This document shows positions 1,072 to 61,068 of a DNA stretch of 64,000 bases, one piece after another. The notes under the pieces were generated by a model. That model was not told the origin of the DNA. It saw nothing but the letters and a program-made list of their open reading frames with translations, and did no database searches. Source of the DNA: Caldilineales bacterium (GTDB lineage: Bacteria > Chloroflexota > Anaerolineae > J102); NCBI GenBank assembly GCA_019695115.1, contig JAIBAP010000027.1, positions 1-64,000 on the forward strand. The letters are read 5' to 3'. The stretch's first letter is position 1. Every line of letters starts with the position of its first letter. The translations under genes were made by a program, and so were the position numbers.

Positions 1072-2898
1072 ATGGTTGAGAACCGAACACGGGCGCCGCG
1101 CACCGAAGCGGTGCAGGCCCTGATCGCAGCGGGCTTCATCGACCCCGACGAGTCTGCGCTTGCGGCCCTGAGCAACGAAGTCGAGACCATCGTCATCGAT
1201 GATGGGGAGACGTTGATGACCGAAGGCGAGGCCGGCGACGCCATGTACCTGGTCATCAGCGGGCGGTTGCGCGCCTTCGTCCGGCGCGACGGCGTCGAGC
1301 AAGCGGTGGGCGAGATCGGGCGCGGCGAAGTGGTGGGCGAGATGGCGCTATTGACCGACGCCGCGCGCGCGGCCACCGTGCGGGCCATCCGCGACACCGA
1401 ACTCGCCAAGCTGAGCCGGGCCGGGTTCGAGCGACTGGCCCAAAACCATCCGGCGGCGGTGCTGAACATGACGCGGCTGATCGTGCAGCGGCTGCAACGG
1501 CTGCTCAGCGCGCCGCGCGTCGTCGAGACCATCGCTGCCATCGCCGTCGTCCCGCTCCATGCTGGCGCCCCGGCCGCAGCCCTGGCCCGGCGTTTGCAGG
1601 GCGCCCTGGCGGCCTTTGGCTCCTGCCAGGTGTGGGACGCCGCTGGCTTCGACCAGGACTTTGGCCAGCCCGGCGCCGCCCAGTCGCCAGCCGATGACCC
1701 TCTCGACCCCGCCATCCTCATCTGGCTGGGAGATCGCGAGAGCGAGCACGACTATCTCGTTTATGTGACCGATCCCGGCCCGACGCCCTGGACCCAGCGC
1801 TGTCTTCATCAAGCCGACCGCATCCTGCTGCTGGCCGAAGCTGGCGCCGACCCCGAACCGGGCGAGATCGAGCGCCGCCTGGCCGAGAACCCCAACCACG
1901 CCCGCGTCGAATTGGTCTTGCTGCATCCCTCCACGGCCGCCCATCCCACGGGCACGGCCGCCTGGCTGGAAAAACGCCCCCATCTGCACACCCACCACCA
2001 TCTGCGCCTGGATGACGAGCGCGATCTGCGTCGCCTGGCCCGACGGCTGACGGGCAGGGCCGTAGGGCTGGTTTTGGGCGGGGGTGCGGCGCGCGGTTTC
2101 GCCCACATCGGCGTCCTCCGGGCGCTGGCAGAGGCCGGGGTCGAGATCGACCTCTACGGCGGGGCCAGCATCGGAGCGCTGATCGCCGGCCCCGCCGCCA
2201 TGAACTGGGATGCCGCTCAGATGCACCAGGCAGCCGAGATGCTCGGCTCGACCAAGAAAATCTTCGACCGCACCCTGCCCCTGGCGGCGATGATGGAGAG
2301 CAAAAAAGTGACTCGGATCGTGCAGCAGGTGTTCGGCGACCGTCGCATCGAGGACCTCTGGCAGCCCTTTTTCTGCATGGCCAGCAACATGACCCGCGCC
2401 CGGCCGGTGGTCCTGCAGCGCGGGCTGCTGTGGGAGGCCGTGCGCGCCAGCATCGCCATCCCTGGCATCTTCACGCCCATGTTGCGCGAGGGCGAGGTCA
2501 TGATCGATGGCGGGGTGATGAACAACCTGCCCATCGATGTTATGCGCAACCAATTCGAGGCCGGGAAAGTGATCGCCGTCGATGCCAGCCCCGCCAAGAC
2601 CAAACTGCACCATTACGACTTCGGCCCTAGCATTTCTGGCTGGCGCGTCTTATGGGGCAGGATCCTGCCGGGGGTTCGCCCGCTGCGGGCGCCGTCGCTG
2701 ATCGGCTCGATGCTGCGTGCGATCGAGTTGAACAGCGCCTTTGCCGTCGAACACGATCTGGCCGCCCAAGCCGATCTGCTCATCCGGCCGCCGCTCGAAG
2801 ACTTCAATGCCCTCGATTGGGATGCCTACGCCGCCATCATCGAGGCGGGGTACAAGGCCGGCCGAGAGCAAGCCGCGGGCTGGCGAGCGGCCGGGTGA
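1072..2898 (+). CDS. Cyclic-nucleotide-binding patatin-like phospholipase (NTE/RssA type)
   Basis: A 608-residue protein. Residues about 22-135 form a cNMP-binding (Crp-like) domain with the pattern GDAMYLVISGRLRAFV followed by GEVVGEMALL. A middle region of about 180 residues resembles the linker seen in neuropathy-target-esterase-like proteins. Residues about 330-500 are a patatin domain with the oxyanion loop GGGAARGFAHIG, the nucleophile elbow GASIG (Ser366) and the catalytic Asp in DGG (Asp479), so a complete Ser-Asp dyad. It should hydrolyse acyl esters of (lyso)phospholipids at the membrane, with the cNMP domain as a possible regulator. A C-terminal tail of about 100 residues follows. 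The domain order matches the bacterial NTE-type family. Confidence 0.92.
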   Translation: MVENRTRAPRTEAVQALIAAGFIDPDESALAALSNEVETIVIDDGETLMTEGEAGDAMYLVISGRLRAFVRRDGVEQAVGEIGRGEVVGEMALLTDAARAATVRAIRDTELAKLSRAGFERLAQNHPAAVLNMTRLIVQRLQRLLSAPRVVETIAAIAVVPLHAGAPAAALARRLQGALAAFGSCQVWDAAGFDQDFGQPGAAQSPADDPLDPAILIWLGDRESEHDYLVYVTDPGPTPWTQRCLHQADRILLLAEAGADPEPGEIERRLAENPNHARVELVLLHPSTAAHPTGTAAWLEKRPHLHTHHHLRLDDERDLRRLARRLTGRAVGLVLGGGAARGFAHIGVLRALAEAGVEIDLYGGASIGALIAGPAAMNWDAAQMHQAAEMLGSTKKIFDRTLPLAAMMESKKVTRIVQQVFGDRRIEDLWQPFFCMASNMTRARPVVLQRGLLWEAVRASIAIPGIFTPMLREGEVMIDGGVMNNLPIDVMRNQFEAGKVIAVDASPAKTKLHHYDFGPSISGWRVLWGRILPGVRPLRAPSLIGSMLRAIELNSAFAVEHDLAAQADLLIRPPLEDFNALDWDAYAAIIEAGYKAGREQAAGWRAAG

Positions 2899-2937
2899 TG
2901 CGTGATGCGTGATGAGTGATGAGTGATGCGTGATGAG
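2896..2937. repeat. Short GTGATGCGTGATGAGT repeat between genes
   Basis: The heptamer GTGATGC/GTGATGA is repeated about six times between the patatin stop and the start of the RecQ gene. In reverse complement it is the same family as the TCACGCATCACG runs at 21343-21383, 49289-49317 and 50907-50945. The start codon of the downstream gene lies inside the repeat. Confidence 0.75.
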
Positions 2938-5415
2938 TGGCGGGTTTCTGGATCCGCAAGGCGCAATTCGCAATCCCATGCCTCTTTGCTGGCGCATCTG
3001 GACCTGAGCGCTGCCGATGTCGCCCGGCTGCCCGGCCCGGCCCGCCAGCAGGTGCTGGAGTTCCTGGTGCGGTGGGAAGCCCACCAGGATGCGCTCTCGT
3101 GTCTGGCTCTGGTCGAGGCCGAAGTGGGCCGTCTGGTCTCGCTGCAAGACTTGCTGGCCGAGGCGCTGGCCGGGGTGGGGCGCTTTGACGAGGCCGTGCG
3201 CCTGCTGCAGCGGCGGTTGGCGCGCCAACCGGCGCCCACGACCGAGATTCTGCTGGCGCGCATCCATCTGGCCGCGGGCAATCCGGCGGCGGCTGCCGCT
3301 ATCGCCCGCCGGCTGATCGAGGCCAACGGCCCGGTGGCGGCCCTGGGCCTGGCCGGAGAAGCGGCGCTGGCGCAGGGCGACCTGGCCGGCGCCGAAGCGA
3401 TGTTCGTGCGCTACCAGCAGCGCCTGCCCCGCCACCGGGCGCCGCTGCTGGGTCTGGCGCTCATCCATCGGCAGCAGGGCAACCCGGTTGCGGCCTCGGC
3501 CTATGCCGTGCGCTGCCTGACCCTGCCCGGCGAGGCGCCCGTGGCCATGTTGCGCGAACTGCGCGATTTCTTCGCCCAAACCGGCGACCGCAACCATCTG
3601 GCCGCCACGAATGAGCAGCTGCGAGCGCGGTTTGCGGCGGAAATGGCGGCGAGGGGGGGAGAGGGAGAGACGCAGGGAGGGGGAGACGCAGGGACGCAGG
3701 GAGGGGGAGACGCAGGGACGCAGGGAGGGGGAGACGCAGGGACGCAGGGAGGGGGAGGGAGGGTGGTGGTTAGCGCCGGCGAGCGGCAGGAGTTGGTGAA
3801 GGAGGCCAGACGGCTGTTTGGTTTCACTGAATTGCTGCCGTTCCAGGCCGAGATCATGGCCGCCACCCGCCGCCGGCAGCATGTCCTGGCCGTTCTGCCC
3901 ACCGGCGCCGGCAAATCGCTCTGCTACCAGCTCCCCGCCTTCTTGGACGATGGCCCCACCCTGGTCATTTCCCCGCTCATCGCCCTGATGAAAGACCAGA
4001 TCGACGGCCTGCCGCCGGCCCTGGCCCGCCGCGCCATCGCCATCAACAGCAGCCTGGATGGCCGCGACCTGCGCCAGGCCATGGTCGATGTGAGCAAGGG
4101 CCGCTATCGCCTGGTCTACGCCGCACCAGAGCGATTGCGCCAACCGGCCTTCCTCCAGGCCCTGCGCCAGGCCCGCCTCAGCCGCCTGGTCATCGATGAA
4201 GCGCACTGTGTGAGCATGTGGGGCCACGATTTTCGGCCCGATTACCTGGTCATCGCCCAGGCTCACGCCGCCCTGGGCAGCCCGCCCATCCTGGCCATGA
4301 CGGCCACCGCCCCGCCGGCCGTGCGCGAGGACATCATCCGGCGGCTATTCGACCCCGCCGCCGGCTTTCACCTCCTGGTCGCCGATCCCTATCGCCCCAA
4401 CCTGCGGCTGCAAGCGATCGCCGTCAAAAACGACGACGAAAAGCGCCGCCGCCTGCTGCAACTCTGCCAGGAAACGGACGGCAGCGGCGTCATCTATGCC
4501 CGCAGCCGCCGGCGCTGCGAGGAAATCGCGGCCCGGCTGAACGAGGCGGGGGTGGCTGCCGAACACTATCACGCCGGGCTGAGCGACCGCGACGCCCGCC
4601 AGGATCGCTTCATGCAGGGACAGACGCGGGTCATGGTCGCCACCATCGCCTTCGGCATGGGCGTCGACAAGCCCGACATCCGCTTCATCCTCCACGACGG
4701 CCTGCCCGATTCGCTGGAGGCCTACACCCAGGAGATCGGGCGCGCCGGACGCGACGGCCTGCCCGCCGATTGCATCCTCCTCTACAGCCCCTACGACCGC
4801 AGCCACCACGCCCGCCGCGGCCAGGAACCATGGATCGACAAGGACTGGCTGCGCCGGGTGTTGGCGGCGGTGAAAGAGCTGTTGGCCGGCCGCAACCCCG
4901 GCCCGGTATCGCTGACCGAGCTGGCCGCCAGGCTGACTTCTGGGCAGGAGCCGGTGGATGCGACCGACCTGCGCGTGGCCCTGAGTGTGCTGGAGCAGGC
5001 CGGTCTGCTGCGCCGTCGCTACGACATCCCCCGCCAAGCCACCCTCTCGCTGCCCGACCGCGCGCCCGGCCCCGCCCTGGCCCACTTCATCCAGGCGGCC
5101 GGGCTGGCCCCCGGCCAGACCACCACACTCGAGTTCCTGGCCCTCAGCCAGCAGGCCCGGCTGCCGCCCGACCGCCTGGAAAGCCAACTGCTGGCCTGGG
5201 AAGCCGAAGGCGGGCTGACCCTGGCCACCAGCGGACGCCAGATGTTGATCGAGATCAGCAAGGCCCCGGCCGACGCTTCGACTCGCATCGACAGCCTGCT
5301 CAGCCAATACGCCGCCCTCCAGTCCCAACGCCTGGCCCAGGTGGTCGAATACGCCGCCACCCGCGGGCCTCGGCCCACTTATCTGGCCAATTATCTGGGT
5401 GGGGTTGGGCGTTAG
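2923..5415 (+). CDS. TPR-repeat / RecQ-type ATP-dependent DNA helicase
   Basis: An 830-residue protein. Residues about 25-230 are helical TPR-like repeats, then a glycine-rich repeat insert (245-281), then a RecQ-type superfamily 2 helicase. Walker A is PTGAGKS (Lys331), the DEAH box is residues 425-428 followed by the RecQ loop CVSMWGHDFRPDY, then MTATAPP and motif VI QEIGRAGRDG. RecQ unwinds DNA 3' to 5' in repair and recombination. After the helicase core only a winged-helix-like segment is seen. The four-cysteine zinc module and HRDC domain of classic RecQ are absent. The N-terminal TPR fusion is unusual. The start is uncertain because it lies in repeats; a later in-frame start is possible. 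Confidence 0.9.
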   Translation: MMRDEWRVSGSARRNSQSHASLLAHLDLSAADVARLPGPARQQVLEFLVRWEAHQDALSCLALVEAEVGRLVSLQDLLAEALAGVGRFDEAVRLLQRRLARQPAPTTEILLARIHLAAGNPAAAAAIARRLIEANGPVAALGLAGEAALAQGDLAGAEAMFVRYQQRLPRHRAPLLGLALIHRQQGNPVAASAYAVRCLTLPGEAPVAMLRELRDFFAQTGDRNHLAATNEQLRARFAAEMAARGGEGETQGGGDAGTQGGGDAGTQGGGDAGTQGGGGRVVVSAGERQELVKEARRLFGFTELLPFQAEIMAATRRRQHVLAVLPTGAGKSLCYQLPAFLDDGPTLVISPLIALMKDQIDGLPPALARRAIAINSSLDGRDLRQAMVDVSKGRYRLVYAAPERLRQPAFLQALRQARLSRLVIDEAHCVSMWGHDFRPDYLVIAQAHAALGSPPILAMTATAPPAVREDIIRRLFDPAAGFHLLVADPYRPNLRLQAIAVKNDDEKRRRLLQLCQETDGSGVIYARSRRRCEEIAARLNEAGVAAEHYHAGLSDRDARQDRFMQGQTRVMVATIAFGMGVDKPDIRFILHDGLPDSLEAYTQEIGRAGRDGLPADCILLYSPYDRSHHARRGQEPWIDKDWLRRVLAAVKELLAGRNPGPVSLTELAARLTSGQEPVDATDLRVALSVLEQAGLLRRRYDIPRQATLSLPDRAPGPALAHFIQAAGLAPGQTTTLEFLALSQQARLPPDRLESQLLAWEAEGGLTLATSGRQMLIEISKAPADASTRIDSLLSQYAALQSQRLAQVVEYAATRGPRPTYLANYLGGVGR
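3655..3765 (+). repeat. In-frame GGAGACGCAGGGACGCAGG repeat inside the RecQ gene
   Basis: A purine-rich unit of about 24 bp (GGGAGGGGGAGACGCAGGGA core) is repeated three to four times and translated as GGGDAGTQ repeats between the TPR and helicase domains. The reverse complement of the same motif (TCCCTGCGTCCCTGCGTCCC) lies between panD and the DUF2520 gene at 56500-56530. It is therefore a dispersed intergenic repeat that has entered or expanded within a gene at a domain linker. Confidence 0.85.
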
Positions 5416-6566: not shown

Positions 6567-8795
6567 TCACACCAGATCGTCGGTCATTTCGATGCCATAG
6601 TGGGCCAGCAGTTCCTGCAAACGCTGGCGGTCGGCCGGGTCGAAGGTGGCCAGGGCGTGCTTGGGTTGGAAGGGTTTGAGTAGACGGGCGATCTGGGGGT
6701 CGTTGCGCAATTCGGCCAGCACCTCGGCGCTGCGAAGCTCCAACAGGGCGCGGGGAGTGGTGCGGGCATTGCCGAAGTGCGCGGTCCAGGTCTTCAACCG
6801 GCGCTCCCATTCGGGTGAGAGCGGATGCACCAGGGCCTTTTTGAGGGCATCGAGGATGGCCTCGATTTTCAACCCCGACTTGACCGCAGCCTGCAACGCC
6901 CGCGGGCTGAGGATGAGGCCGGCGTCGGTGTTCTCGGTGAAGGCGGCGACGGGGGCGCTGGCGCCCAGGCCGATGACCGGGGTGACGGGGTGCAAGAGAC
7001 CCTCGTCGCTGAGGCGAAAGGCCGGGCGCCCGCCGGATGACTGGGCGCTGCTATGCTCCAGCAGCAAGTTGGCGGCGCGCATGGCCGTTTGCAGGGCGCT
7101 GAGGTCGCGCACCAGGCTGAGCGTGGGCGTCAGGGTTTGGCCCAGGGCGGCGGCCACAGGGGGCAGGCGGTGGAGGGCCGTGGTTTCGGCGGCGTTGGCT
7201 GTTTCCAGGACGGCAAGGGGTGAGAAGAAGCGGATGCGGTTGTGCCCTTCCTCCCATTCCTGCAAGGTGCGCAAGACATTGCCCGGCAAAGCCGCGCCCG
7301 TGCTCTGCTGCAAAAAGTCGATGACCCGGCGCACAGGCCAGGCGCCCAACGCCCCCTGATGCACCGAGGCCTTGGTCAGTTCGTATTCGGTGACGCGGCC
7401 GGCTTTCTGGCGCTCGGCAAAAGCGTCGAGGCTGGCCAGGGTGGCGTCGGGCACAGGGTCGATGGCCAGGATGTGGTAATTGGGCTGGACGATGACCTGC
7501 CCGGCAGCGGCAGGGAGATCGAGTTGGGCGATGCGACCCAGGGCCAGGGCGCCGGCGGGGGTCAGGCGAAAGGCGGTGGGATTCTGTTTGGCGTCGAAGC
7601 CGATGTCGACCAATCCCATCCAGTGCAGCGGGCCTTCGAGCGAGGCCTTGAGATAGCTGCCAAGCGGGTCGCCATAGACGCTGAGACGAGCGGCGGTGGT
7701 GACGAGTGAACTCAAGGCGTCGCGCCCGTGGTAGGTGTAGGCGCTGATTTCGCTATAGATGGCGCCCAACAACATCGGCGACAGGGCATCGACCAGGCTG
7801 GCGCGGTCGATCCACTGGTCGACCGGCGCCTGCTGCAAATGGGCGACCAACAGCTGTCGCAAATCCGTGCCGAAGGTCGAATTCTGGCTGAACTGGGAGA
7901 TAGCGGTGGATTCGTCCCACCAATTCGCTTTCAGCCAGGCGTCGAAACAGAGGCGGATGCGGTTTTCGGGTGTGTCGTCGAAGAAGGGCGGTGAACCGGG
8001 CGCAGTGATCATGTCGCCGGGGGCCAATTGCAGCAGTCTCAGAGCTTGCGCCATCAGCCTGAAGAAAAGCAGGTCTGGATGCTCAGGCTCTCCTTGCAGG
8101 TTGGCGATGGGCTGCATCAGCACCGCATTGATGGCTTTGAGGTCGCGCTTGTAGAGGAAGCCATCCTGCCTGATCTGGAGGGATTGGCGGTGCACCTGGC
8201 TCCAATAGAAGTACAGGCTGCGCTGGAAACTGCGGGCCGATCCCGAGGCCGTGTGCTTGATCTCAGCCTCGGGCAGCAGCTTCGGCGCCCAGGCAGGCAG
8301 CGGCAGGGCGCGGCGCACGTGTTCGGGCAGGCCGATGGCATCGAGGGCATCCCAGCTCACCACGGTCTGGTAGGAGGGCAAGTCCCTGGCCCGACCCCGC
8401 CAGCCAACCGCCAGGCCGAGCGCGCACAGGCGCAGCGGCGTCTGGATGATGTTGGCGCTGGCGGCCCTGAGCGTCCGCAACGTGGGGCGTATTGCTTCCA
8501 GGTCGGTGGTGGAGGGCATGGGAGCGATGCCGAGGATCTGGGCCAGCCGGAACAGCGCCGGCAGGGTCAGGCCGTCGGCCGGGGCCGCCAGGAGCAAATC
8601 CAGCACCTTGCGCTCCAAGGGGTTGAGCCGGGCCAGGGTCTGGCGGATCACCTCCGGGCGCTCGAAATGGTGGGACAAGGCCGTGATCAAATCAGCTTTC
8701 TTGGGCTGGCGACCGGGAAAGAGGTTGTGCAGGTCGGCAAACGCGCGCAAGGTGCTGAGGTCGTAGCGGTTGAGGTCGTAGATGGGCGCGGGCAT
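6567..8795 (-). CDS. Helicase-associated (Helicase_C_3-like) protein, second copy
   Basis: A 742-residue protein. The region from about residue 432 (VIVQPNYHILAIDP ... TEYELTKASVHQG ... DFLQQSTGAALPGNVLRTL) matches the pattern of the 'helicase-associated' domain found next to XPB-type helicases in Actinobacteria and Chloroflexota. The N-terminal part has winged-helix-like repeats. The start MPAPIYDLN at 8795 was chosen because the upstream extension is low quality. It follows the 8821-10653 gene by 25 bp and is the third gene of the XPB operon. It probably acts with the helicase in DNA repair; this rests on gene context. Confidence 0.75.
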   Translation of the reverse strand: MPAPIYDLNRYDLSTLRAFADLHNLFPGRQPKKADLITALSHHFERPEVIRQTLARLNPLERKVLDLLLAAPADGLTLPALFRLAQILGIAPMPSTTDLEAIRPTLRTLRAASANIIQTPLRLCALGLAVGWRGRARDLPSYQTVVSWDALDAIGLPEHVRRALPLPAWAPKLLPEAEIKHTASGSARSFQRSLYFYWSQVHRQSLQIRQDGFLYKRDLKAINAVLMQPIANLQGEPEHPDLLFFRLMAQALRLLQLAPGDMITAPGSPPFFDDTPENRIRLCFDAWLKANWWDESTAISQFSQNSTFGTDLRQLLVAHLQQAPVDQWIDRASLVDALSPMLLGAIYSEISAYTYHGRDALSSLVTTAARLSVYGDPLGSYLKASLEGPLHWMGLVDIGFDAKQNPTAFRLTPAGALALGRIAQLDLPAAAGQVIVQPNYHILAIDPVPDATLASLDAFAERQKAGRVTEYELTKASVHQGALGAWPVRRVIDFLQQSTGAALPGNVLRTLQEWEEGHNRIRFFSPLAVLETANAAETTALHRLPPVAAALGQTLTPTLSLVRDLSALQTAMRAANLLLEHSSAQSSGGRPAFRLSDEGLLHPVTPVIGLGASAPVAAFTENTDAGLILSPRALQAAVKSGLKIEAILDALKKALVHPLSPEWERRLKTWTAHFGNARTTPRALLELRSAEVLAELRNDPQIARLLKPFQPKHALATFDPADRQRLQELLAHYGIEMTDDLV

Positions 8796-8820
8796 GGAGC
8801 AACGTGATCGCCGGATGGCT

Positions 8821-10653
8821 TCAGGTGGACTTGTGATCAGGATCGACCAGGGTGGGCGTGTAGCCCTGGCGCACAAAGCGCCGGAACAGTTCTTCGGCGT
8901 GGCGGCGTTCGATGGCGATCAGCCGCGGGCTGAATTGCCGGCGGAGATAGATGGCCAGGTCGGTGCTGCGTAGCAATTCGGGCAAGGCCAGATCATCGCC
9001 GAATTCGATCAGGGTCAGCTCGGAATGGGCATGATAATGACCAAAGGTGGCGGCCCACTCGCGCACCAGGGCCACAGTCCCCGTGGGCAGAGGGCCGTCG
9101 CACAGCGCGGCCAAAGCATTCAGCAGGCCGTCCAGGTCTTCGCCCTGGCTCAGGCTGGCTCGCAGCCGGTCCTGGCTGAGGACATAGCCCGGCTGGCCCT
9201 GTTTGTCCCGCCCTGGCGCCGCCAATTTGGAGAGCAGAATGTGCAGGGCCGGGCCGGCGTTGAGCGTCCGCAAGAAGGTGGGGGTGTCGAAGCTGATCCG
9301 ACCCGTGCTGGTCGGTTCGGCAGTCTGTTCGGGCGCGGCCGCCAGCCCCAGGAAGTAGCGGCAGAATGGCGTCAGACGGATGGCTGTCACCTCGCTGCCG
9401 CCGTAGCCCAGATCCACCAGACCCAGGTGATGAAACGGGCCGGTGAGCAGATAGGTGTAGATGCGCTTCAGGGTGGCTTGCCAGCCGGTGTCCTTGCTGG
9501 GGTCCAGCCGGCGGCCATCTTCGGTCAGAAAGCCCAGGCTGCCCAGGCTGGATGCCGAAGTGACGAACGTGCGCAGTTGATAGAGCCGCTGCAGCAGGTC
9601 GGCCAGAGAATACCAGACGCCCGGTTCGAGCAAGAGCAAGGTCCGGGCCACCACCTGCCGCCAGCGGATGTTCTCTTGCGTGAACAGGCTGCCGGGCATG
9701 TAGGATGGGGTGCTGATGGCAAGCAACGGCGGCGGGAACAGGCTGTCGATCGTCGCCCAGATCGGGGTGATGAGAAGGATTTGGACGAGCTGCCGCGCCA
9801 GATCAGCCAACTCGACCTGGCGCAGTCTCTCGCTGGCTTCAGGCCCGATCGTGATCTTCCCATAAGTCTGGCGTTCGAGAAAACCCAACCCAGCCATAGC
9901 CAGCAACAGCAGATGCGCTTCCAGGGGTCCGAGGTCAAGCCCTTCCGCCAACCGCTCCAGGCCGGCCAGGGGCACGAGCGGCGGCTGCGGGCGCGCGATC
10001 ACCTCGCTCCCGCGGCGTTCGCTGTGCATGGGCACCGTGGTCGACGGCAATGACCATTGCACCGAATACTCGGATGGCGCCGCGAGCTGATTCTGGGCCA
10101 GGTAGTCGGGCAGGCGGTGGGCCGCCAGCGCCAACCGCATGGGATCAGCCAGCGCCATGCGCCCCAGCCGCTGCGTCTCGGCCAGGGGCGCCAGCCAACT
10201 TGCGTCCAATGGCAGCACGCGATAGACATCGGGCCACAAAAAGAAGCGGTCGCCGACCTGGACGAACGATTGCACGCTCAGCTGACTCTTGCCGACTTCC
10301 TGGAAGTAGGAGGCCGGGGTGATGCCCACCGCCTGGCCGAGCATCTGGCTCATACCACTCTGAACGCCTCCTTCGACGCCGCCACTCACCCACATCTGCT
10401 GGAAGAGGGCGCGCAGGCCCACCGGCAGCCGCCGTAGCTCCGCCGCCCAGCCATCATCGGCCTGGTGGTAGGCGACGACCTGCTCGATCAGGGCCTGTTT
10501 GCTCGTCCCTTGCAGCTTCCAGCCCCGGCTGCGCGCCAGATCGCGCAGGTCTTGCAGCCGGAAGCCGATCTCGAGTAGTTCGGGCAACGGTCGCCTGCCC
10601 GCCAAACCCAGTTGGGCGAGGGCCGTGGCATCGATCGGGTCTGTGGTCGTCAT
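8821..10653 (-). CDS. Helicase-associated domain protein, first copy
   Basis: A 610-residue protein, predicted mostly helical, with an N-terminal SAP-like segment (DLRDLARSRGWKLQGTSKQ) that could bind DNA. The rest resembles the downstream 742-residue protein in arrangement (winged-helix repeats) though it is diverged. Its start overlaps the XPB stop by 4 nt (ATGA), so the two are translationally coupled. No catalytic motif is visible. It is likely an accessory factor of the XPB-like helicase. Confidence 0.72.
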   Translation of the reverse strand: MTTTDPIDATALAQLGLAGRRPLPELLEIGFRLQDLRDLARSRGWKLQGTSKQALIEQVVAYHQADDGWAAELRRLPVGLRALFQQMWVSGGVEGGVQSGMSQMLGQAVGITPASYFQEVGKSQLSVQSFVQVGDRFFLWPDVYRVLPLDASWLAPLAETQRLGRMALADPMRLALAAHRLPDYLAQNQLAAPSEYSVQWSLPSTTVPMHSERRGSEVIARPQPPLVPLAGLERLAEGLDLGPLEAHLLLLAMAGLGFLERQTYGKITIGPEASERLRQVELADLARQLVQILLITPIWATIDSLFPPPLLAISTPSYMPGSLFTQENIRWRQVVARTLLLLEPGVWYSLADLLQRLYQLRTFVTSASSLGSLGFLTEDGRRLDPSKDTGWQATLKRIYTYLLTGPFHHLGLVDLGYGGSEVTAIRLTPFCRYFLGLAAAPEQTAEPTSTGRISFDTPTFLRTLNAGPALHILLSKLAAPGRDKQGQPGYVLSQDRLRASLSQGEDLDGLLNALAALCDGPLPTGTVALVREWAATFGHYHAHSELTLIEFGDDLALPELLRSTDLAIYLRRQFSPRLIAIERRHAEELFRRFVRQGYTPTLVDPDHKST

Positions 10654-12452
10654 TGGTCTGGTGCGGTCAGGGTGTCAGTTGCGGTCTGGCCCGATGGCAG
10701 GGCGCGCAGCACGGGTTCGGCCTCGAGCTCGAGCGTGATCGGTTCGTAGTCGTCGATCTCGTGGTCGTAGAGGATGTCGTAGCGGTAGCCTTGTTCGGTC
10801 AGGAACATCTGGCGATGGGCGCCGAAGCTCTGGTCGGTGGTGTCGCGCGAGACCAGGCTGTAGAAATGGGCCAGCAACCCGTTGCGCTTGGGCCGCAGGA
10901 TGCGGCCCAGGCGTTGTGCTTCTTCCTGGCGGCTGCCGAAGGCGCCCGAAATCTGCAACATGACATTGGCCTCGGGCAGATCGACGGCGAAGTTGCCCAC
11001 CTTGGAGATGACGAGATGTTTGATCTGGCCCTCGCGCAGCTTCTGGAAAAGCTCCTCCCGCTCGCGCACCGGCGTCTTGCCGGTGATCAGCGGCGCGCCC
11101 AGGCTGCGCGACACGCGCTCGATCTGGTCGATGTACTGGCCGATGATGAGGACGGTGTCATCCTTGTGTTTGGCCAGCAGCTTCTCCAGCACCTCCACCT
11201 TGGCCGGATTCTCGGCGGCCAGGCGGTGTTTTTCGCGCTCGTTGGCCAGGGCGTATTCCATCCGCAGGTCGGGGGGCAGAGGGATGCGGATCTCGTGGCA
11301 TTCGGCGGTGGCGATCCAGCCCTGTTTTTCCAGTTCTTTCCAGGGGACATCGTATTTCTTGGGGCCGACGAGCGAGAACACCTCCTCTTGCATCCCGTCC
11401 TCGCGCACCAGGGTGGCGGTCAGGCCCAGGCGGCGGCGGGCCTGCAACTCGGCGGTGATGCGAAACACCGGCGCCGGCAACAGATGCACCTCGTCGTAGA
11501 TGATCAGCCCCCAGTCGCGCTCGTCGAAGACTTTGAAGTGCGGGAAATCGGCCGGTTCGATGAATTTGCGCTGCGGGCCGCGATGCCAGGTGAGCACCTG
11601 GTAGGTGGTGACGGTGACGGGGCGGATTTCTTTGGCCAGGCCGGTGTATTCGCCGACGTCGTCGGGGCCGAGGCTGGTCTTGTCGAGCAGTTCGCGGATC
11701 CACTGGCGCACAGCCACGGTGCTGGGGCAGAGGATGAGGGTGTTGGTGCTCAGTCTCTCCATCGCCCCCATGCCCACCAGCGTCTTGCCGGCGCCGCAGG
11801 GCAGGACGATGACGCCACTGCCGCCGCCCGCCTCGCCGCCTGCCCAGAAGGCGCCGATGGCGTCTTCCTGATAATGGCGCAAACGCAGGGCGTCGCCGGT
11901 CGCGACCATCGCCTGGCGCAGGCGGATGGGCAGCGGCGCCCCATCCACATAGCCCGCCAGATCCTCGGCCGGATAGCCGATCCCCACCAGGGCGCGTTTG
12001 AGATAGCCGCGTTGGGCCGGGTCGGCGCGCAAATGGGTGGCGTCGATGCGTTCGACGATGAAATTGCGCACATCCTTGTGGCGTTCGATCTCGACCAACA
12101 GGGCCGTGTCGTCCGAAACCAATAGCAGTTCCCCGGTCGGGCCTTTCAGCAGTTTGACCCGGCCATAGCGCCCCACATACTCGAAGATGTCGCGGCGGAC
12201 GTTGTCGGGGATGTCGAATTTGGCGTAGCTTTCAAGGCCCCCCAGGATGGCGTCGGCGCGCAGGCCGGCGGCGGCCGCGTTCCACAACGAAAGCGGCGTG
12301 ATCCGGTAGGTGTGCACATATTCCGGGCTTTTTTCCAGCTCGGCGAAGCGGGCCAGGTGGTCGCGCGCGGCTTCGTAGAGGTCGTTCTGGACTTCGAGCA
12401 GGACGGTCTTATCGCCCTGAACGATGACCGGGTTCTGAGGCTGGTAGGGCAT
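10650..12452 (-). CDS. XPB/Ssl2-type DNA repair helicase
   Basis: A 600-residue superfamily 2 helicase. The N-terminal domain (about 1-180) is the XPB damage-recognition-like region. Walker A is PCGAGKT (Lys223), motif II is DEVH (320-323), motif III is LTATL, and motif VI is QRLGRILRPKRNG. DEVH plus the LRPK ending is typical of XPB rather than RecQ or UvrB. The start MPYQPQNPV at 12452 is clear because upstream codons are just translated tandem repeats (PPATCDL repeats). It heads a three-gene operon with two helicase-associated proteins, a context known from Actinobacteria (one such neighbour) and here doubled. Confidence 0.92.
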   Translation of the reverse strand: MPYQPQNPVIVQGDKTVLLEVQNDLYEAARDHLARFAELEKSPEYVHTYRITPLSLWNAAAAGLRADAILGGLESYAKFDIPDNVRRDIFEYVGRYGRVKLLKGPTGELLLVSDDTALLVEIERHKDVRNFIVERIDATHLRADPAQRGYLKRALVGIGYPAEDLAGYVDGAPLPIRLRQAMVATGDALRLRHYQEDAIGAFWAGGEAGGGSGVIVLPCGAGKTLVGMGAMERLSTNTLILCPSTVAVRQWIRELLDKTSLGPDDVGEYTGLAKEIRPVTVTTYQVLTWHRGPQRKFIEPADFPHFKVFDERDWGLIIYDEVHLLPAPVFRITAELQARRRLGLTATLVREDGMQEEVFSLVGPKKYDVPWKELEKQGWIATAECHEIRIPLPPDLRMEYALANEREKHRLAAENPAKVEVLEKLLAKHKDDTVLIIGQYIDQIERVSRSLGAPLITGKTPVREREELFQKLREGQIKHLVISKVGNFAVDLPEANVMLQISGAFGSRQEEAQRLGRILRPKRNGLLAHFYSLVSRDTTDQSFGAHRQMFLTEQGYRYDILYDHEIDDYEPITLELEAEPVLRALPSGQTATDTLTAPDQ

Positions 12453-12455
12453 AGA

Positions 12456-12770
12456 GGGTGGCAGGTCGCAGGTGGCGGGTGGCAGGTCGCAGGTGGCGGG
12501 TGGCAGGTCGCAGGTGGCGGGTGGCAGGTCGCAGGTGGCGGGTGGCAGGTCGCAGGTGGCGGGTGGCAGGTCGCAGGTGGCGGGTGGCAGAGCCTGTCCT
12601 GAGTGAAGCGAAGGATGGCGGGTGGCAGGTGGCAAGTCGCAGGTGGCAAGTCGCAGGTGGCAGGTGGCAGGTCGCAGGTGGCAGGTCGCAGGTGGCGGGT
12701 GGCAGAGCTTGTCCCTTCGCTCCGTTCAGGGCAGGCTCTGAGTGAAGCGAAGGATGGCAGGTGGCAGGTC
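12456..12770. repeat. GGTGGCAGGTCGCAGGTGGC repeats with TGTCCTGAGTGAAGCGAAGGA elements
   Basis: Six close copies of a 21-23 bp unit (GCGGGTGGCAGGTCGCAGGT) are followed by shorter variants (GGTGGCAGGTGGCAGG) to about 12770. Two 'CCTGAG...CGAAGG' elements are embedded: one at about 12590-12616 and an inverted pair at 12707-12754 (CCCTTCGCTCCGTTCAGGG ... CTGAGTGAAGCGAAGG). There is no gene. The same unit occurs upstream of trpB (20545-20660). The region lies between the XPB and trpA genes on the minus strand, so it is upstream of XPB and downstream of trpA. Confidence 0.9.
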
Positions 12771-13807: not shown

Positions 13808-16800
13808 ATGACTTCGACACATCTCGGCCCCACCACTCGCCGGATTCTGCGCAAGCTCGCCGATACGGCCATCATCCTGCTTGCTGTCGTCTTTCTGGCT
13901 CTGTTTGGGCTGATCATGGCCGAACGGGGCCGCGAACGCGTGCCCGCCCCGCCGCTGGAAGTGGCCGGCCAGGCGCTGGTGCGCACGGCCGATTATGTCC
14001 TGAATCATCCGCAGACCTATTTCTTCCAGCGCAACGAGCAGCCCGCCCTGGAACTCGTCTCTGTCGCCTTCTTGCGTAGCGCCGGGCTGCTGGTGGTCGC
14101 TCTCGTCGTCGCCGCCCTCCTGGGGATTGGTCTGGGTCTGGCGATGGCGCTGTCGCGGCGGCGGATCGGTTCGACGGTGATGCTGGCGATCTCCGTCATC
14201 GGCATCTCCACCCCCAGCTTTCTGCTGGCTATGTTCCTGTGGGTGATCAACATCCAGATCTACCGGCGTTTCGCGGTCAGCGCCCTGCCGTCGGCCGGTT
14301 TTGGCTGGGATTTGCACATGGTGATGCCGGTCATCGTCCTGGCCGTCCGCCCGCTGGCGCAGCTCGCCCAGGTGACTTATGTCTCCATGTCCGAGGTCTT
14401 GGCGCAGGATTACATCCGCACCGCGCGGGCCAAGGGCCTCTCGGCGCGGCAGGTGGTCATCGGCCACGTGACGCCCAATATCCTGCTGCCGGTGCTGACC
14501 ACGCTGGGAACCTCGCTCCGCTTCTCGCTGGCGGCGCTGCCGGTGGTGGAATACTTCTTCGACTGGCCGGGGGTCGGTTGGCTGCTGCTCGAGGCGATTC
14601 GGCTGGGGATGACGACCCTGGCCATCGATCTGGTGGTGGCGCTGGGGTTGTTTTTCTTGATCGTCAACCTCCTGCTCGACCTGCTGTATCCGATCCTGGA
14701 CCCCAGGCTGCGCGGCGAGGCCGCCCTGCAGGTGGGCTACCAGGCCGCGAGCGTCAGCCCCCGCCAGAGCCTGGCCGGGCTGGGCCAGGCCCTGCGCGAC
14801 CGCTGGCGCGACTGGCAGGATCGGCGCGACCCCGCCGCAGCGAAGAAGCCCGGTCTGCCCCCCCTGCCCGCCCCCCCGACCGTGGTCGATCAGACCCTCC
14901 CCGTCAGCGGGGCCTCCCGCATCTTCCGCAGCCTCATCCACAACCCCATCCTGCAGTTCAGCACCGTGCTGATCATAGCCTTCGCCGCCCTGGCCGTTTT
15001 TGGCGACGGGCTGACCGCCGCCAACCCCTACGAGATGCACGGCTTGATGTTGATCGACGGCAAGAGCGGCACGCCGCCGTTCCCGCCTTCGCGCGTTTTT
15101 GCCTGGGGTTCTGACCATGTCGGGCGCGATGTGCGGGCGTTGGTGCTGTCGGGCGGGCGCCAGACGCTCACCCTGGCTCTGTTCGGCATGATTGCCCGCG
15201 TCCTCTTGGGCGCGGCGCTGGGGTTGGTGGCCGGCTGGTGGCAGGGCGGGCGTTTCGACCGCCTGGTGACGGGCGTCATCGGCGTCTGGGCCGCCTTTCC
15301 CGCCACCATCTTCGCCATGATCCTGATCCAGGGGCTTGGCATCCAGCAGGGCATGTGGGTGTTCATCGTGGCCATTTGTCTGGTGGGCTGGGGCGAGGTG
15401 ACGCAGTTCGTCCGCAGCCAGGTGATCAAGCTGCGGCCCGAACCCTATGTCGAGGCGGCGCGTGCGCTCGGCGCCGGAACGCCGCGCCTGCTCACGCAGC
15501 ATCTCCTGCCGCATTTGCTCTCGCCATTGCTGGTGCTGGCGGTGCTGGAGATGGGGGGCGTCTTGCTGCTGTTGGCCGAACTTGGTTTCCTCAACACCTT
15601 CCTGGGCGGCGGCTTCAGGGTGGAGATCGCCGAGGCCGGCAACATGGTGCCTGTCATCGCCTATGTCTCGGATGTGCCGGAATGGGGGGCGATGCTGGCC
15701 AACATCCGCCTCTGGTGGCGCAGCTATCCCTGGATGGCCTGGTATCCGGGGCTGGCCTTCTTCCTGGCCATTTTCGCCTTCAATCTCTGGGGCGAGGGAC
15801 TCCGGCGTTTTCTGAACGATAGCCGCATCAATATCTCCCGCCTGATCAACCGCTATTCGTTCGTCGCCCTGGCGGTAGCGGCGGTGGCGCTGGTGTGGTT
15901 CCTGCGGGCGGCGACGCCGATGGGGGTGTATGCCTCGTCAGCCGGGGCATTCGACGCCGAAGCCGCCCAGTCCCATGTCCAGGTGTTGGCCGGGCCAGCG
16001 ATGGAAGGGCGGGAAACAGGGACGCCCGGGGCCGAGAAAGCCGCCCAGTACATCGCCCAACAGATGGAGGAAATCGGCCTCTTCCCGGCCGGCGATGACA
16101 ATACCTTCCTGCAGACGGCCATCGTCTCCCGCTCACATCTGGTCGAAACGCCCCGCCTGGTCCTCCTCGATGACCAGGGCAACGTGGCCGAAGCGCTTGT
16201 CTATCGGCAAGATTTCGTCGAATCCACCGCGACTTTCCAGGTCCCCGGCCAGGGCGCCATTGTGGGGGTGGCGGTTGGCCCAGACCCCGATACGCCCGGC
16301 GCCGATCCTTATCGACTTGGCAACAGCGACTTGTTCGACAAGGTGATCGTGGTCGCCGACGCCGGGGACAAGCGCATCAACGTCAGGGCGGCGGCGGGGG
16401 TGCTGTTCGTCAGCGATGATCCGATGGTTTTCGAACGCAAAGAGTTGTTCGCCACCTTGCAGCCAGGGCGGACGAACTGGCGGCCGACCCCGCCGGTGAT
16501 GTACATCACCCCGCAAACAGCCGACCGCCTGTTGGCCACCGCTGGCAGCAGCCTGGCCGAACTGCGCCAGATGGCGGCAGGCTTGGAGCGCGGGGAGGTG
16601 GCGATGACGGCAGCCGGCGTCACGGTCGATCTCGAGACCTCGGTGGTGGAGGATGAGACGCTGCAAGAAAAGTATTTCAACGTCATTGGCTTCATCCCCG
16701 GTTCGGGCGCGGCCATGCGAGACGCAGGCGGGAGCCTGGATCAGCAGGTGATCATGGTCAGCGCCTACTACGATGGCCTGGGCGTTGGCCCGGACGGGAC

Positions 16801-17335
16801 GCTGTACCCCGGCGCCAACGACAACGCCAGCGGGGTGGCGGTCATGCTGGAGATGGCCCGCGCCCTCAAGCAAAGCCCCTACGAGCCGAAGAAGACGGTG
16901 GTTTTCGTAGCCTGGACGGGCGGCGAACGCAGCGAAGCCCTCAGCCTGATCAACGTCATGAACGCCAAGCGCGGGTTCTCCTCGTTGAAGATGGAGGCGG
17001 TGATCGAGCTAAGCGGCGTGGGGGCGGGCGACGGCCAGGCGATTGCCCTGGGCGAGGGCAGCAGCTACCGGCTGGTGAAGCTGTTTCAGCAGGCGGCGGG
17101 GCGCACCGCCGCCGCCATCACCACCCGCGGGCGCGGGCCGCACTACGACCGGCCCGCGGCCATCGCCTTTGGCGGGCGCGATGCGATGACGATGTACGTC
17201 AGTTGGGATGGCTCCGACGGCACAGCCCACACCCCGCGCGACACCTTCGCCGCTATCGACCCCGACAAGTTGCGGCAGGTGGGGGAGACGACGTTGCTGA
17301 CCTTGACCGCGCTGGCGCGGGAGACGGATTATTGA
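13808..17335 (+). CDS. Fusion: DppB-like permease + DppC-like permease + M28-like peptidase domain
   Basis: One 1175-residue frame joins three proteins. Residues 1-305 are a DppB-type ABC permease (EAA loop near [16 protein letters not shown]). Residues about 370-690 are a DppC-type permease ([12 protein letters not shown] loop [12 protein letters not shown]). After a membrane segment (about 693-712) residues 735-1175 are a PA/M28 aminopeptidase-like domain, probably outside the membrane. In M28 enzymes the first zinc His sits in SAHYDS; here it is SAYYDG (Tyr987). The GEE pair is GER (Glu1040, Arg1041). The bridging Asp1005 (GANDNASG) and His1141 (AHTPRDT) remain. So the peptidase may be inactive or altered. 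No ABC ATPase or substrate-binding protein lies nearby. Confidence 0.88.
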
Positions 17336-23715: not shown

Positions 23716-24726
23716 TCAATCGAGGGGGCTGCGAACGGCGAAGGGGCCCTTTTGGAGGACGTGGGTGTAGATCATGGTGGTTTTGACATCAGCATGGCCG
23801 AGGAGTTCCTGGACGGTGCGGATGTCCCTTCGGCTGTGCTCAGGGTGAACTCCGCCGGCTTCGAGGAGGTGGGTGGCGAAGCTGTGGCGAAAGGTGTGGG
23901 GGGTGACGTGTTTGCTGATTTTGGCGGCCAGGGCAGCCTGGCGCACGGCTTTTTGGACGCCGCTTTCGTCGAGGTGATGGCGACGGACCATGCCGGAACG
24001 GGGGTCTACGGAAAGGCGGTCGGAGGGGAAGATGTATTGCCAGATCCATTCGCGGGCGGCGTTGGGGTATTTTTCGGCCAGGGCGTAGGGGAGGTAGACG
24101 GCGCCGTGGCCGGCGGCCAGGTCGGCGTCGTGCAGTTGTTTGGCTTGCTGGAGCTGGAGGCGGAGAGGTTCGACGGTGCGGGCGGGGAGCATGGTGAGGC
24201 GGTCTTTTTCACCTTTGCCATCGCGCACGATGACCTGGTGTTGGCCGAAATCGACGTTCCTTCGTCTGGGCTCAGGACGAGCTTTGACGCGCAGGCGCAG
24301 GGCTTCGAGGAGACGAAGGCCGGCGCCGTAGAGGAGGAGGGTGACGAGTTGGTGGACGCCGCTGAGGCGGTCGATGACGGCGCGGGCTTCGTCTTTGCTG
24401 AGGACGGTGGGGAGGTGTTGGGGGGCCTGGGCGCGGGCGGATTGGATGGGGGCGTCGAGGGGACGGTCGAGGACTTCGCGGTAGAGGAAGAGGAGGGCGC
24501 TGAAAGCCTGATTCTGGGTGGAGGCGGCGACGTGCTTATCGACGGCGAGATGGGTGAGGAAGGCTTCGACCTCGGCGGCGCCCATGTCGGCGGGGTGCTT
24601 TTTGCCATGAAAGAGGATGAAGCGCTTGATCCAGTCGACGTAGGCCTCTTCGGTGCGGAAGGCGTAGTGTTTGAGGCGGAGTTTGTTCCGCACTTGATCC
24701 AGGAGTTTTACCGGTGGTGTGTCCAT
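23716..24726 (-). CDS. intI: Integron integrase (tyrosine recombinase) with two in-frame repeat inserts
   Basis: A 336-residue tyrosine recombinase that moves cassettes between attC and attI. N-terminal [20 protein letters not shown] is typical. The catalytic set is present: Arg138 ([11 protein letters not shown]), Lys in [26 protein letters not shown] and Tyr320 (MIYTH). The integron-specific extra helix [20 protein letters not shown] followed by [13 protein letters not shown] proves IntI rather than XerC. Two inserts (ARPEPRRRN after [11 protein letters not shown] after EAGG) are encoded by the dispersed CCTGAG-N-CGAAGG element. Removing 24 nt at each place restores RVKDVDFG and EAGGDIRTVQ. 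No stop or frame shift is present, so it may be active. Confidence 0.95.
23827..23850 (-). repeat. 24-nt repeat element inserted in intI (copy 2)
   Basis: Read on the gene strand: GTTCACCCTGAGCACAGCCG plus AAGG, giving VHPEHSRR. It lies between the HxxR motif helix and the [11 protein letters not shown] helix. Removal gives LLEAGGDIRTVQ, the family consensus. Confidence 0.85.
24258..24281 (-). repeat. 24-nt repeat element inserted in intI (copy 1)
   Basis: Read on the gene strand: CTCGTCCTGAGCCCAGACGA plus AGGA, splitting a GAC codon. Removal restores RLRVKDVDFG, which is the usual IntI sequence before the catalytic-lysine hairpin. Related copies lie at 12590-12616, 46036-46061, 47936-47960 and 52494-52521. 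Confidence 0.85.
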
Positions 24727-59289: not shown

Positions 59290-61068
59290 TCAGAACCGCT
59301 GCACCAGGTCGGCGGTGCTATCGAGGATGAGGTCGGCGTCGGCCAGGTCGCGAGGCCCGCCAAAGCCGCACAAGACGCCGATGGTGCGCGTCCCGGCCGC
59401 CTGCCCGGCCCGGATATCGACGACGGTATCACCCACCATCACACATGCCTGCGGCTCCAGCCCCAACAGTCGGCTGGCCGTGAGCACGGGTTCGGGGTGC
59501 GGCTTCAGGCGGCGGACGTCATCCCGGGTCACGACGGCATCGAATAGCTCCTCCAGGCCATGGGTGCGCAAAAAATGCCAGGCGATGCTGTCGTCGCGAG
59601 TTGTGACCAGGGCCAGTTTGTAGGTCGGCTTGAGGGTGCGCAGCGCTGCCTCGACGCCGGGCACCGGTTTCATCGCCTCGGGATGGCAGTGACCCAGGCA
59701 GCTCTGCATCCACCGGTTCAGACGGAAGGCTTCGTCGTCGAGGTGCAGGCGGTCGAGCTGCGTCACCAGCCAGTTGGCGGGACCTTCGGCTGCCATCGCC
59801 AGACGGCGCAGGAACGGCGTCGGATCGCCGCGGGGGAACAGGCTGCTTAGCCGGCCGAGACGGGCGGCCAGGTTGCTGACGATGGCGTTGTCGGTGTCGG
59901 CCAGGGTGCCGTCCAGGTCGAAGAGGACGCCGGCCATAGGTTGCCCGCCCAGGAAGCCACGCTGATCAGGGGTCAGAACAGCGGTTGGCGATGAGAACGG
60001 CGCCTCGTCGAGCAGCTTGTCATAGATGTAGCCGCCGAGCAAGCGGGCCGTGGCCAGAACGGGGGCCGCGAACAACACACCCAGAACACCCGCCTGCGCT
60101 GCCCCGATGATGCTGGCCACAAAGACCAGGCCGGGATGGAGTTGCACGCGCCGGCCGATGAAGCGAGGGATGATGTAGACCTGATCGAGCTGAAAGACCA
60201 GGGTGTAGACCACCAGCACGACCAGGGCCACGGTGGCGTTGCTGACCGGCAGCCAGGACGAACCGCTAAAAAGGGCGATGAACAGGGCCGGGAGAACGGC
60301 GATGATCGGGCCGACGGTGGGGACGAATTCGCCCAGGCCGGCAATGGCGCCGAGCAGAAACGCGTTCGACATCCCCATCACCCACATCGACAGACCGATG
60401 GTGACCCCAACCGTTGTCGAAACCAGGATCTGACCACGGAAAAAACTGCCCCAGATCAGCCCCATGTCCTGCAACAGGCGGATGAGTTCAAGGCGGAAGG
60501 AGGCACGGGCATGGCCGAGCAGCCAACCTCTTAGCCGGTAGCTATCCTTGAGCAGCCAGAAGACGACGACCAGGATGAAGAGCAGCCACAGCAAGCTGGA
60601 GGCCAGGCCAGAGACGATGCTGACGGCGCTGCCGGCCAGGGGAGCGATGAGCGCCTGCGAGGCCTCGACCAGGCGCTGGGCCAGATCGCTGCCTTCCAGC
60701 ACCAGCGGGCCAAGCCGGAATGTTTCGGCGCTGAGACGGTCGAGGAGGGGGCGAAGGCCGGCGGCTTCGTGCTGGATGCGGGCGACCAGGTTGGCAAGGC
60801 TGGGGGTGAGAAGGACGGGCGCCAGCACGAGCGCCAGCACGGTCAGCGCCAGCACCACAAAGGCGGCCCCGCCGCGGCTCCAACCGGTGCGCCGGATCAG
60901 CCATTCGGTGGGCGGCTTGAGGAAATAGGCCAGCACCCCCGCCAGGATCAGCGGGGGCAACGACTGCCCGAATTGCACCAGCAGCCAGGCGACTACCACC
61001 AGGCTGCTGATGAGCACGATCAGTTTGGTGGTGGGCGTCCAGCGATTCTCCATCCTGTCCTGCCGCAC
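59290..61068 (-). CDS. Fusion: AI-2E-family transporter + HAD hydrolase
   Basis: One 592-residue frame. Residues 1-365 form an AI-2E/PerM-type transporter with about eight membrane helices (LAYFLKPPTEWLIRRTG; GEFVPTVGPIIAVLPALFIA; FQLDQVYIIPRFIGRRVQLH). Residues about 379-592 are a HAD phosphatase: DLDGT (Asp384, Asp386), TTRDD, RLKPHPEP lysine and GDTVVDIRAG. All HAD catalytic residues are present. The two activities are normally separate. A start at ATG 61053 (MENRW) is also possible. Confidence 0.88.
   Translation of the reverse strand: MRQDRMENRWTPTTKLIVLISSLVVVAWLLVQFGQSLPPLILAGVLAYFLKPPTEWLIRRTGWSRGGAAFVVLALTVLALVLAPVLLTPSLANLVARIQHEAAGLRPLLDRLSAETFRLGPLVLEGSDLAQRLVEASQALIAPLAGSAVSIVSGLASSLLWLLFILVVVFWLLKDSYRLRGWLLGHARASFRLELIRLLQDMGLIWGSFFRGQILVSTTVGVTIGLSMWVMGMSNAFLLGAIAGLGEFVPTVGPIIAVLPALFIALFSGSSWLPVSNATVALVVLVVYTLVFQLDQVYIIPRFIGRRVQLHPGLVFVASIIGAAQAGVLGVLFAAPVLATARLLGGYIYDKLLDEAPFSSPTAVLTPDQRGFLGGQPMAGVLFDLDGTLADTDNAIVSNLAARLGRLSSLFPRGDPTPFLRRLAMAAEGPANWLVTQLDRLHLDDEAFRLNRWMQSCLGHCHPEAMKPVPGVEAALRTLKPTYKLALVTTRDDSIAWHFLRTHGLEELFDAVVTRDDVRRLKPHPEPVLTASRLLGLEPQACVMVGDTVVDIRAGQAAGTRTIGVLCGFGGPRDLADADLILDSTADLVQRF

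Follow-up and report, generated by a model that had tools for sequence, protein, structure and literature searches.

A permease-peptidase fusion and its altered zinc site

The window, which is the whole 64,000-nucleotide stretch of DNA that was analysed, carries at positions 13808 to 17335 of the forward strand a single frame of 1175 amino acids, running from an ATG at 13808 to the stop at 17335 with zero internal stops. Pfam finds two BPD_transp_1 domains in its product (5.5e-53) and a Peptidase_M28 domain at residues 976-1163 (1.1e-22), and the NCBIfam models nearest to the permease halves are the Opp/Dpp/Nik B and C permeases, with every listed score below its equivalog cut-off. The AF2 model, calculated from a family alignment of 49 rows, has a pLDDT of 87.3 and a pTM of 0.81. 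In Foldseek, its second permease half matches 8z1x_B, the DppC of E. coli (target TM-score of 0.90), and matches of its C-terminal part include PA/M28 aminopeptidases, transferrin receptor 1 (TfR1) and GCPII. These results bear out the preliminary description of one uninterrupted 1175-codon frame with DppB-like, DppC-like and PA/M28-like parts; the Pfam domains and the AF2 model also rule out a chance reading frame.

The following features all lie on the forward strand. The chain begins with TM1 and a shortened TM1-TM2 loop (residues 8-79; 13829..14044) without the scoop motif (PGDP...LDxP) known from E. coli DppB (PMC12136057). The DppB-like half, delimited by Pfam and NCBIfam (about residues 76-305; 14033..14722), contains the first coupling (EAA) loop (residues 197-230; 14396..14497) and is followed by an inter-half linker (residues 306-371; 14723..14920), whose confidence in the AF2 model is low at residues 357-366. 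The DppC-like half, recognised by NCBIfam and by the Foldseek match to 8z1x_B (about residues 372-675; 14921..15832), contains the second coupling (EAA) loop (residues 546-572; 15443..15523), placed by alignment like the first. Beyond it, the AF2 model has an extra transmembrane helix (residues 682-702; 15851..15913), and Pfam and Foldseek then delimit a predicted extracytoplasmic PA/M28-like pseudo-aminopeptidase domain (residues 703-1175; 15914..17332). Considering the six-TM fold of DppC together with this helix, we infer that the helix would cross the membrane after the DppC core and thereby put the M28-like domain outside. A strand-rich stretch of the model within that domain appears to be a PA-like insert (about residues 800-955, with approximate boundaries; 16205..16672); its Foldseek matches are the PA-containing BSAP, TfR1 and GCPII. 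The fold of the putative receptor domain is that of M28 peptidases, according to both Pfam and Foldseek, and not that of a binding protein (SBP).

The active site was aligned to solved M28 enzymes and to neighbouring M28 proteins. Among its five zinc ligands, the His is replaced by Tyr987, converting AHYD to AYYD with Asp989 kept (16766..16774), and the Asp of LDMVG is replaced by Ser1069 (17012..17014); Asp1005, at the position of the bridging ligand (16820..16822), and His1141, at another ligand position (17228..17230), are kept. The alignments confirm what was first noticed at Tyr987, Asp1005 and His1141, and they add Ser1069 as a lost ligand that had been missed. The remnant of the catalytic/ligand Glu pair is Gly1039-Glu1040-Arg1041 (16922..16930). 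Its original reading as Glu1040-Arg1041 holds against BSAP, where Glu1040 is the catalytic Glu and Arg1041 occupies the ligand position, but not against the aminopeptidase from Vibrio or the M28 proteins of neighbouring genes, where Gly1039 occupies the catalytic position and Glu1040 that of the ligand. By either alignment, one Glu is left and one is lost, and the identity of the survivor depends on the alignment.

Across the family, all five zinc ligands are kept in 0 of the 79 fused B-C-M28 copies (73 triple and 6 quad fusions), so that the pseudo-enzyme state proposed for the window copy extends family-wide; judged by these residues, the fused aminopeptidase domain is apparently inactive. 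Only one of the 22 split DppC-M28 copies in this set has all five ligands (L104), and it has a Val at the catalytic Glu position, while the full set is present in 10 of the 23 stand-alone neighbouring M28 domains. Despite the family-wide loss of the zinc site, the former active-site loop is, by sequence, still one of the best-conserved stretches of the domain: residues 986-1020, which make up 35 of the 476 residues of the M28 part, hold 11 of its 36 invariant or near-invariant positions.

Distribution, gene neighbourhoods and origin of the outer domain

A search for the architecture in other genomes, as the preliminary description had suggested, covered 396 genomes of the host's class and detected this fusion, or one much like it, in 70 of them, representing 53 of 222 genera (E<=1e-90); these matches are mostly full length, with identities of about 33-59%, and they rule out a lone oddity of the host genome. 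Of the five matches at E<=1e-70 in a phylum-wide draw of 400 genomes, two lie outside the class, and the fusion is thus rare there in this sample. Two named strains carry the full-length fusion, Thermanaerothrix daxensis (GNS-1) and Ornatilinea apprima (P3M-1), the latter with two copies in tandem. Within the taxonomic family of the window copy, a homologue is present in 7 of 20 genomes; the six besides the window copy show 37-39% identity to it, and full-length copies with 53-57% identity to the window copy sit in other taxonomic families; two genomes of the same genus, one of them 98% complete, were searched and the fusion was not found. This pattern is compatible with horizontal acquisition as well as with differential loss. 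A phage-type integrase is encoded about 6 kb downstream of the fusion (23716-24726, reverse strand). Elsewhere, a triple fusion in a Myxococcota MAG (L172) reflects either transfer or mis-binning, and a copy in genome G052 (L062:8532-10117, reverse strand; 58-69% identity) is broken into overlapping frames with large internal losses and has the appearance of a gene in decay or of an assembly error.

The family has three architectures, called split, triple (the window type) and quad. In the split form, a DppB gene and a DppC-M28 gene are often followed by genes for a propeller protein of the PD40 type and for a large protein with M28-MA-M28 domains, and the first M28 domain of these large downstream proteins usually has an intact site. 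A heliorhodopsin gene adjoins the M28-MA-M28 gene at L044:12871-13665 (by Pfam), and its homologue does so at L059:560-1402. In the quad form, a LolD/MacB-type ATPase domain is placed ahead of DppB-DppC-M28, in operons with HlyD and MacB/FtsX genes. This ATPase domain is degenerate in the quads L048, L058, L093, L094 and L095, where the signature and the H-loop are lost in five of five and Walker A in three of five.

In eight loci (L050, L055, L056, L121, L141, L167, L169 and L185), the neighbours of the fusion include canonical genes for DppB and DppC. Seven of these loci also show an SBP and six an ATPase; the SBPs there have their own DppC and their own, mostly scoop-bearing, DppB. A gene for a lipoprotein-like protein of about 600 amino acids often lies between the fusion and the canonical Dpp genes. 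One example is L056:12255-14045 (reverse strand), which has homologues in L055, L057, L050, L167, L169, L173 and L185; the protein has C-terminal TM helices and no Pfam match. The surroundings of the window copy are different. Across the whole 70-kb contig that bears it (C27), there are zero matches to ABC_tran, oligo_HPY and SBP_bac_5, so that this contig lacks the same-locus SBP and two ATPases of a Dpp/Opp importer, the SapD/SapF-type ATPases of a SapBCDF-like operon and the functional ATPase of a MacAB-type system. The same genome overall has 122, 8 and 12 matches to these models, respectively; its eight DppD/F-type (oligo_HPY) ATPase genes are on contigs C10, C13, C25 and C49, none adjoining the fusion. 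The initial observation that ATPase and binding-protein genes are missing nearby is therefore correct for C27, but the eight Dpp-adjoining loci show that it is not a general rule.

Some relatives indicate where the outer domain may have come from. Outside the class, genomes G405 (L192), G615, G839, G840 and G848 carry a DppC-M28 protein with a catalytically intact site beside a scoop-less DppB. In a further scoop-less relative, G045 (L187:9798-12044, forward strand), DppC is fused instead to a PQQ_2/BamB-type propeller, again beside a scoop-less DppB. In a tree of DppC regions, the scoop-less group is separated from the canonical DppC rows with a support of 100/99, leaving aside one long row (L005_2405_3352; end branch of 5.83), which is probably a misfiled DppB frame and whose placement is to be ignored. 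Inside the scoop-less group, the propeller-fused row and L188 branch first (99/89), followed by the intact copies of the G615 type; the placement of L192 within the split clade has moderate support, and some inner branches are weakly supported. Because of this topology and the intact DppC-M28 relatives, an active peptidase is the likelier ancestral state, with degeneration occurring more than once, and the window domain would then descend from an active peptidase. The preliminary description had counted relatives with an intact zinc site and a separate gene against its reading; intact sites do exist, and DppB is separate there, but the M28 domain is still fused to DppC.

The scoop motif and the ATPase contacts

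In E. coli, the binding protein DppA receives the scoop motif of DppB in its cleft (PMC12136057). The signature of this motif, defined as PG[DGS]P...LDxP after TM1, was seen in 19 of 24 ordinary DppB proteins and in none of the 107 DppB halves from the family, a contrast that is descriptive rather than blind because the motif was settled after viewing these same sequences. Among the five ordinary DppB proteins without it, two (L038 and L039) are the family's own nearest relatives, and an alignment indicates that E. coli SapB likewise lacks the scoop segment. The residues equivalent to ATPase contacts are retained. In particular, the first EAA loop of the window copy keeps all equivalents of E. 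coli DppB D235, T239, K243, H254 and N258, and across the family these DppD-contact positions are kept in 38, 32, 38, 37 and 38 of 38 sequences, respectively; coupling-loop and DppD-contact residues are strongly conserved, quads included. The family thus has the core of a Dpp/Opp system, with two BPD_transp_1 halves, EAA loops and DppD-contact residues, but not the SBP-docking scoop of its DppB, and it would be unwarranted to call it a Dpp importer outright. Loss of the scoop together with conservation of the DppD contacts supports a transporter that would be SBP-independent and would obtain its ATPases from elsewhere in the genome.

Comparison with known systems and candidate mechanisms

The fusion resembles E. 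coli DppABCDF in its two BPD_transp_1 halves, EAA loops, DppD-contact residues and DppC fold; unlike Dpp/Opp systems, it joins the halves in one chain, lacks the scoop, adds a TM helix and an M28-like domain, and has no local ATPase or SBP genes. With SapBCDF, the putrescine exporter of E. coli, it shares a Dpp-type permease pair with a scoop-less B subunit, whereas SapBCDF has separate genes, ATPases in its operon and no extracytoplasmic enzyme domain. GlnPQ, an ABC importer with substrate-binding domains linked to its TMD (PMC8025302), offers a likeness in that the substrate receptor lies within the permease chain; the receptor of GlnPQ is a true substrate-binding domain, while the putative receptor of the fusion has the fold of an M28 peptidase and sits on a core of the Dpp type. 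By this analogy, the fusion may work like a permease with a built-in receptor, a statement to be kept apart from what it appears to be, namely a Dpp-type core with an M28-derived domain. PA-domain M28 aminopeptidases (BSAP/YwaD, PaAP, 2ek8) have the nearest fold to the C-terminal domain, which differs from them in the loss of its zinc site and one Glu and in its membrane tether to a transporter. TfR1, nicalin (the PDB match of an intact relative) and nicastrin, termed a substrate receptor in PMC3349648, are M28-fold receptors and a possible precedent for peptidase folds as receptors; unlike the fusion, they are eukaryotic and outside ABC transporters. Likeness to MacAB is found in the quads, with their LolD/MacB-type ATPase domain and adjoining HlyD and MacB/FtsX genes, and is absent from the window copy; unlike in MacAB, the fused ATPase domain of the quads is degenerate. 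No earlier description of a permease-M28 fusion was found in the open-access papers searched, where absence is weak evidence.

The best explanation, which we adopt tentatively and with somewhat less than even confidence, is a Dpp-type transporter that needs no SBP, has a pseudo-aminopeptidase as its receptor and relies on ATPases acting in trans, probably working as an importer. Both permease halves and the extracytoplasmic receptor domain would form one chain on a Dpp-type ABC core, the receptor being folded like a PA/M28 aminopeptidase and anchored through a seventh TM helix that follows DppC. Its ancestor would be an active aminopeptidase that was joined to DppC and later lost its zinc chemistry; the receptor most likely binds a peptide or another small molecule with an amine in what used to be the active-site cleft, and would hand it to the DppBC channel. 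Because the receptor would capture the substrate itself, no soluble SBP is proposed to dock, and ATP would be hydrolysed by shared DppD/DppF-type ATPases encoded elsewhere in the genome. The Dpp-adjoining loci favour peptide import and a local ATPase source, the intact DppC-M28 relatives make a peptide ligand plausible, and the presence of TfR1, an M28-fold receptor, among the closest structures to the model would count for the receptor role. Against this explanation, the scoop-less SapB of E. coli belongs to a putrescine exporter (PMC12772348), the window copy has no ATPase or SBP gene near it, and Dpp operons adjoin only a minority of loci; the degenerate ATPase domain of the quad subclade suggests that transport could have been lost there. 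The original proposal of a built-in pseudo-enzyme replacing the SBP therefore stands as far as the zinc sites and the scoop are concerned, while the binding of peptides and their import are inferred.

The strongest competing reading, unlikely but with several points in its favour, is export. The fusion would then be an SBP-free, SapBCDF-like exporter of peptides or amines whose outer M28-like domain serves as an exit-side lid or sensor or, in the active relatives, as an enzyme trimming the exported peptides. SapBCDF exports putrescine in E. coli and Proteus (PMC12772348) with a B subunit that lacks the same scoop segment, a dedicated SBP is missing from the fusion, and the HlyD-type and MacB/FtsX genes of the quad operons are typical of export. 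The MacB/HlyD association is limited to one subclade, several members adjoin canonical Dpp operons or large M28 peptidases, and the window halves score higher with the Opp/Nik importer models of NCBIfam than with its SapB and SapC models.

It is more doubtful that the fusion is an auxiliary permease still served by the usual soluble SBPs of other Dpp systems, whether near or distant, with the M28-like domain as a platform for docking SBPs, peptidases or propeller proteins. SBP genes adjoin the fusion in several relatives and beta-propeller and peptidase genes are among its neighbours, but those SBPs have a DppC and a mostly scoop-bearing DppB of their own, and all 107 family DppB halves examined lack the scoop. 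A non-transporting membrane scaffold or sensor is similarly improbable: the window copy lacks a local ATPase and the quad ATPase domains have lost the motifs listed above, yet the coupling-loop and DppD-contact residues are strongly conserved even in the quads. A residually active or metal-independent peptidase fused to a permease could draw on the persistence of Asp989, Asp1005, Glu1040 and His1141 and on the intact relatives, but is very improbable given that the window copy has lost the zinc His, the zinc Asp and one Glu and that the full set occurs in none of the fused B-C-M28 copies. An assembly artefact joining separate genes, conceivable in a draft genome of 135 contigs, has a negligible probability, and a false join is ruled out because dozens of independent assemblies, and the two named strains, contain this fusion at full length.

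If the SBP-independent transporter with a pseudo-aminopeptidase receptor is correct, a possible generalization, more tentative still, is that the Chloroflexota have a Dpp-type class freed of soluble SBPs, with a receptor made from an aminopeptidase in the permease chain and an outer domain that can be swapped, as the fusion of a scoop-less permease to a PQQ/BamB-type beta-propeller suggests. One transporter family would then offer a natural series from an active peptidase-permease fusion to a pseudo-enzyme, alongside loss of the scoop, making it possible to test both Dpp-type ABC transport without a binding protein and the conversion of an enzyme into a transport receptor. Study in culture is feasible, since the fusion is present in two named strains, T. 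daxensis GNS-1 and O. apprima P3M-1.

Other genes in the window include one for cNMP-binding, NTE P-loop-like and patatin domains in one protein (1072-2898, forward strand; Pfam), followed by a RecQ-type helicase with an N-terminal TPR stretch (2923-5415, forward strand). Three neighbouring genes with Helicase_C_3 matches lie at 6567-12635 on the reverse strand, where 10650-12635 encodes an XPB-type helicase scoring far above its NCBIfam cut-off. An AI-2E family transporter and a HAD-type phosphatase domain share one frame of 592 amino acids at 59290-61068 (reverse strand).
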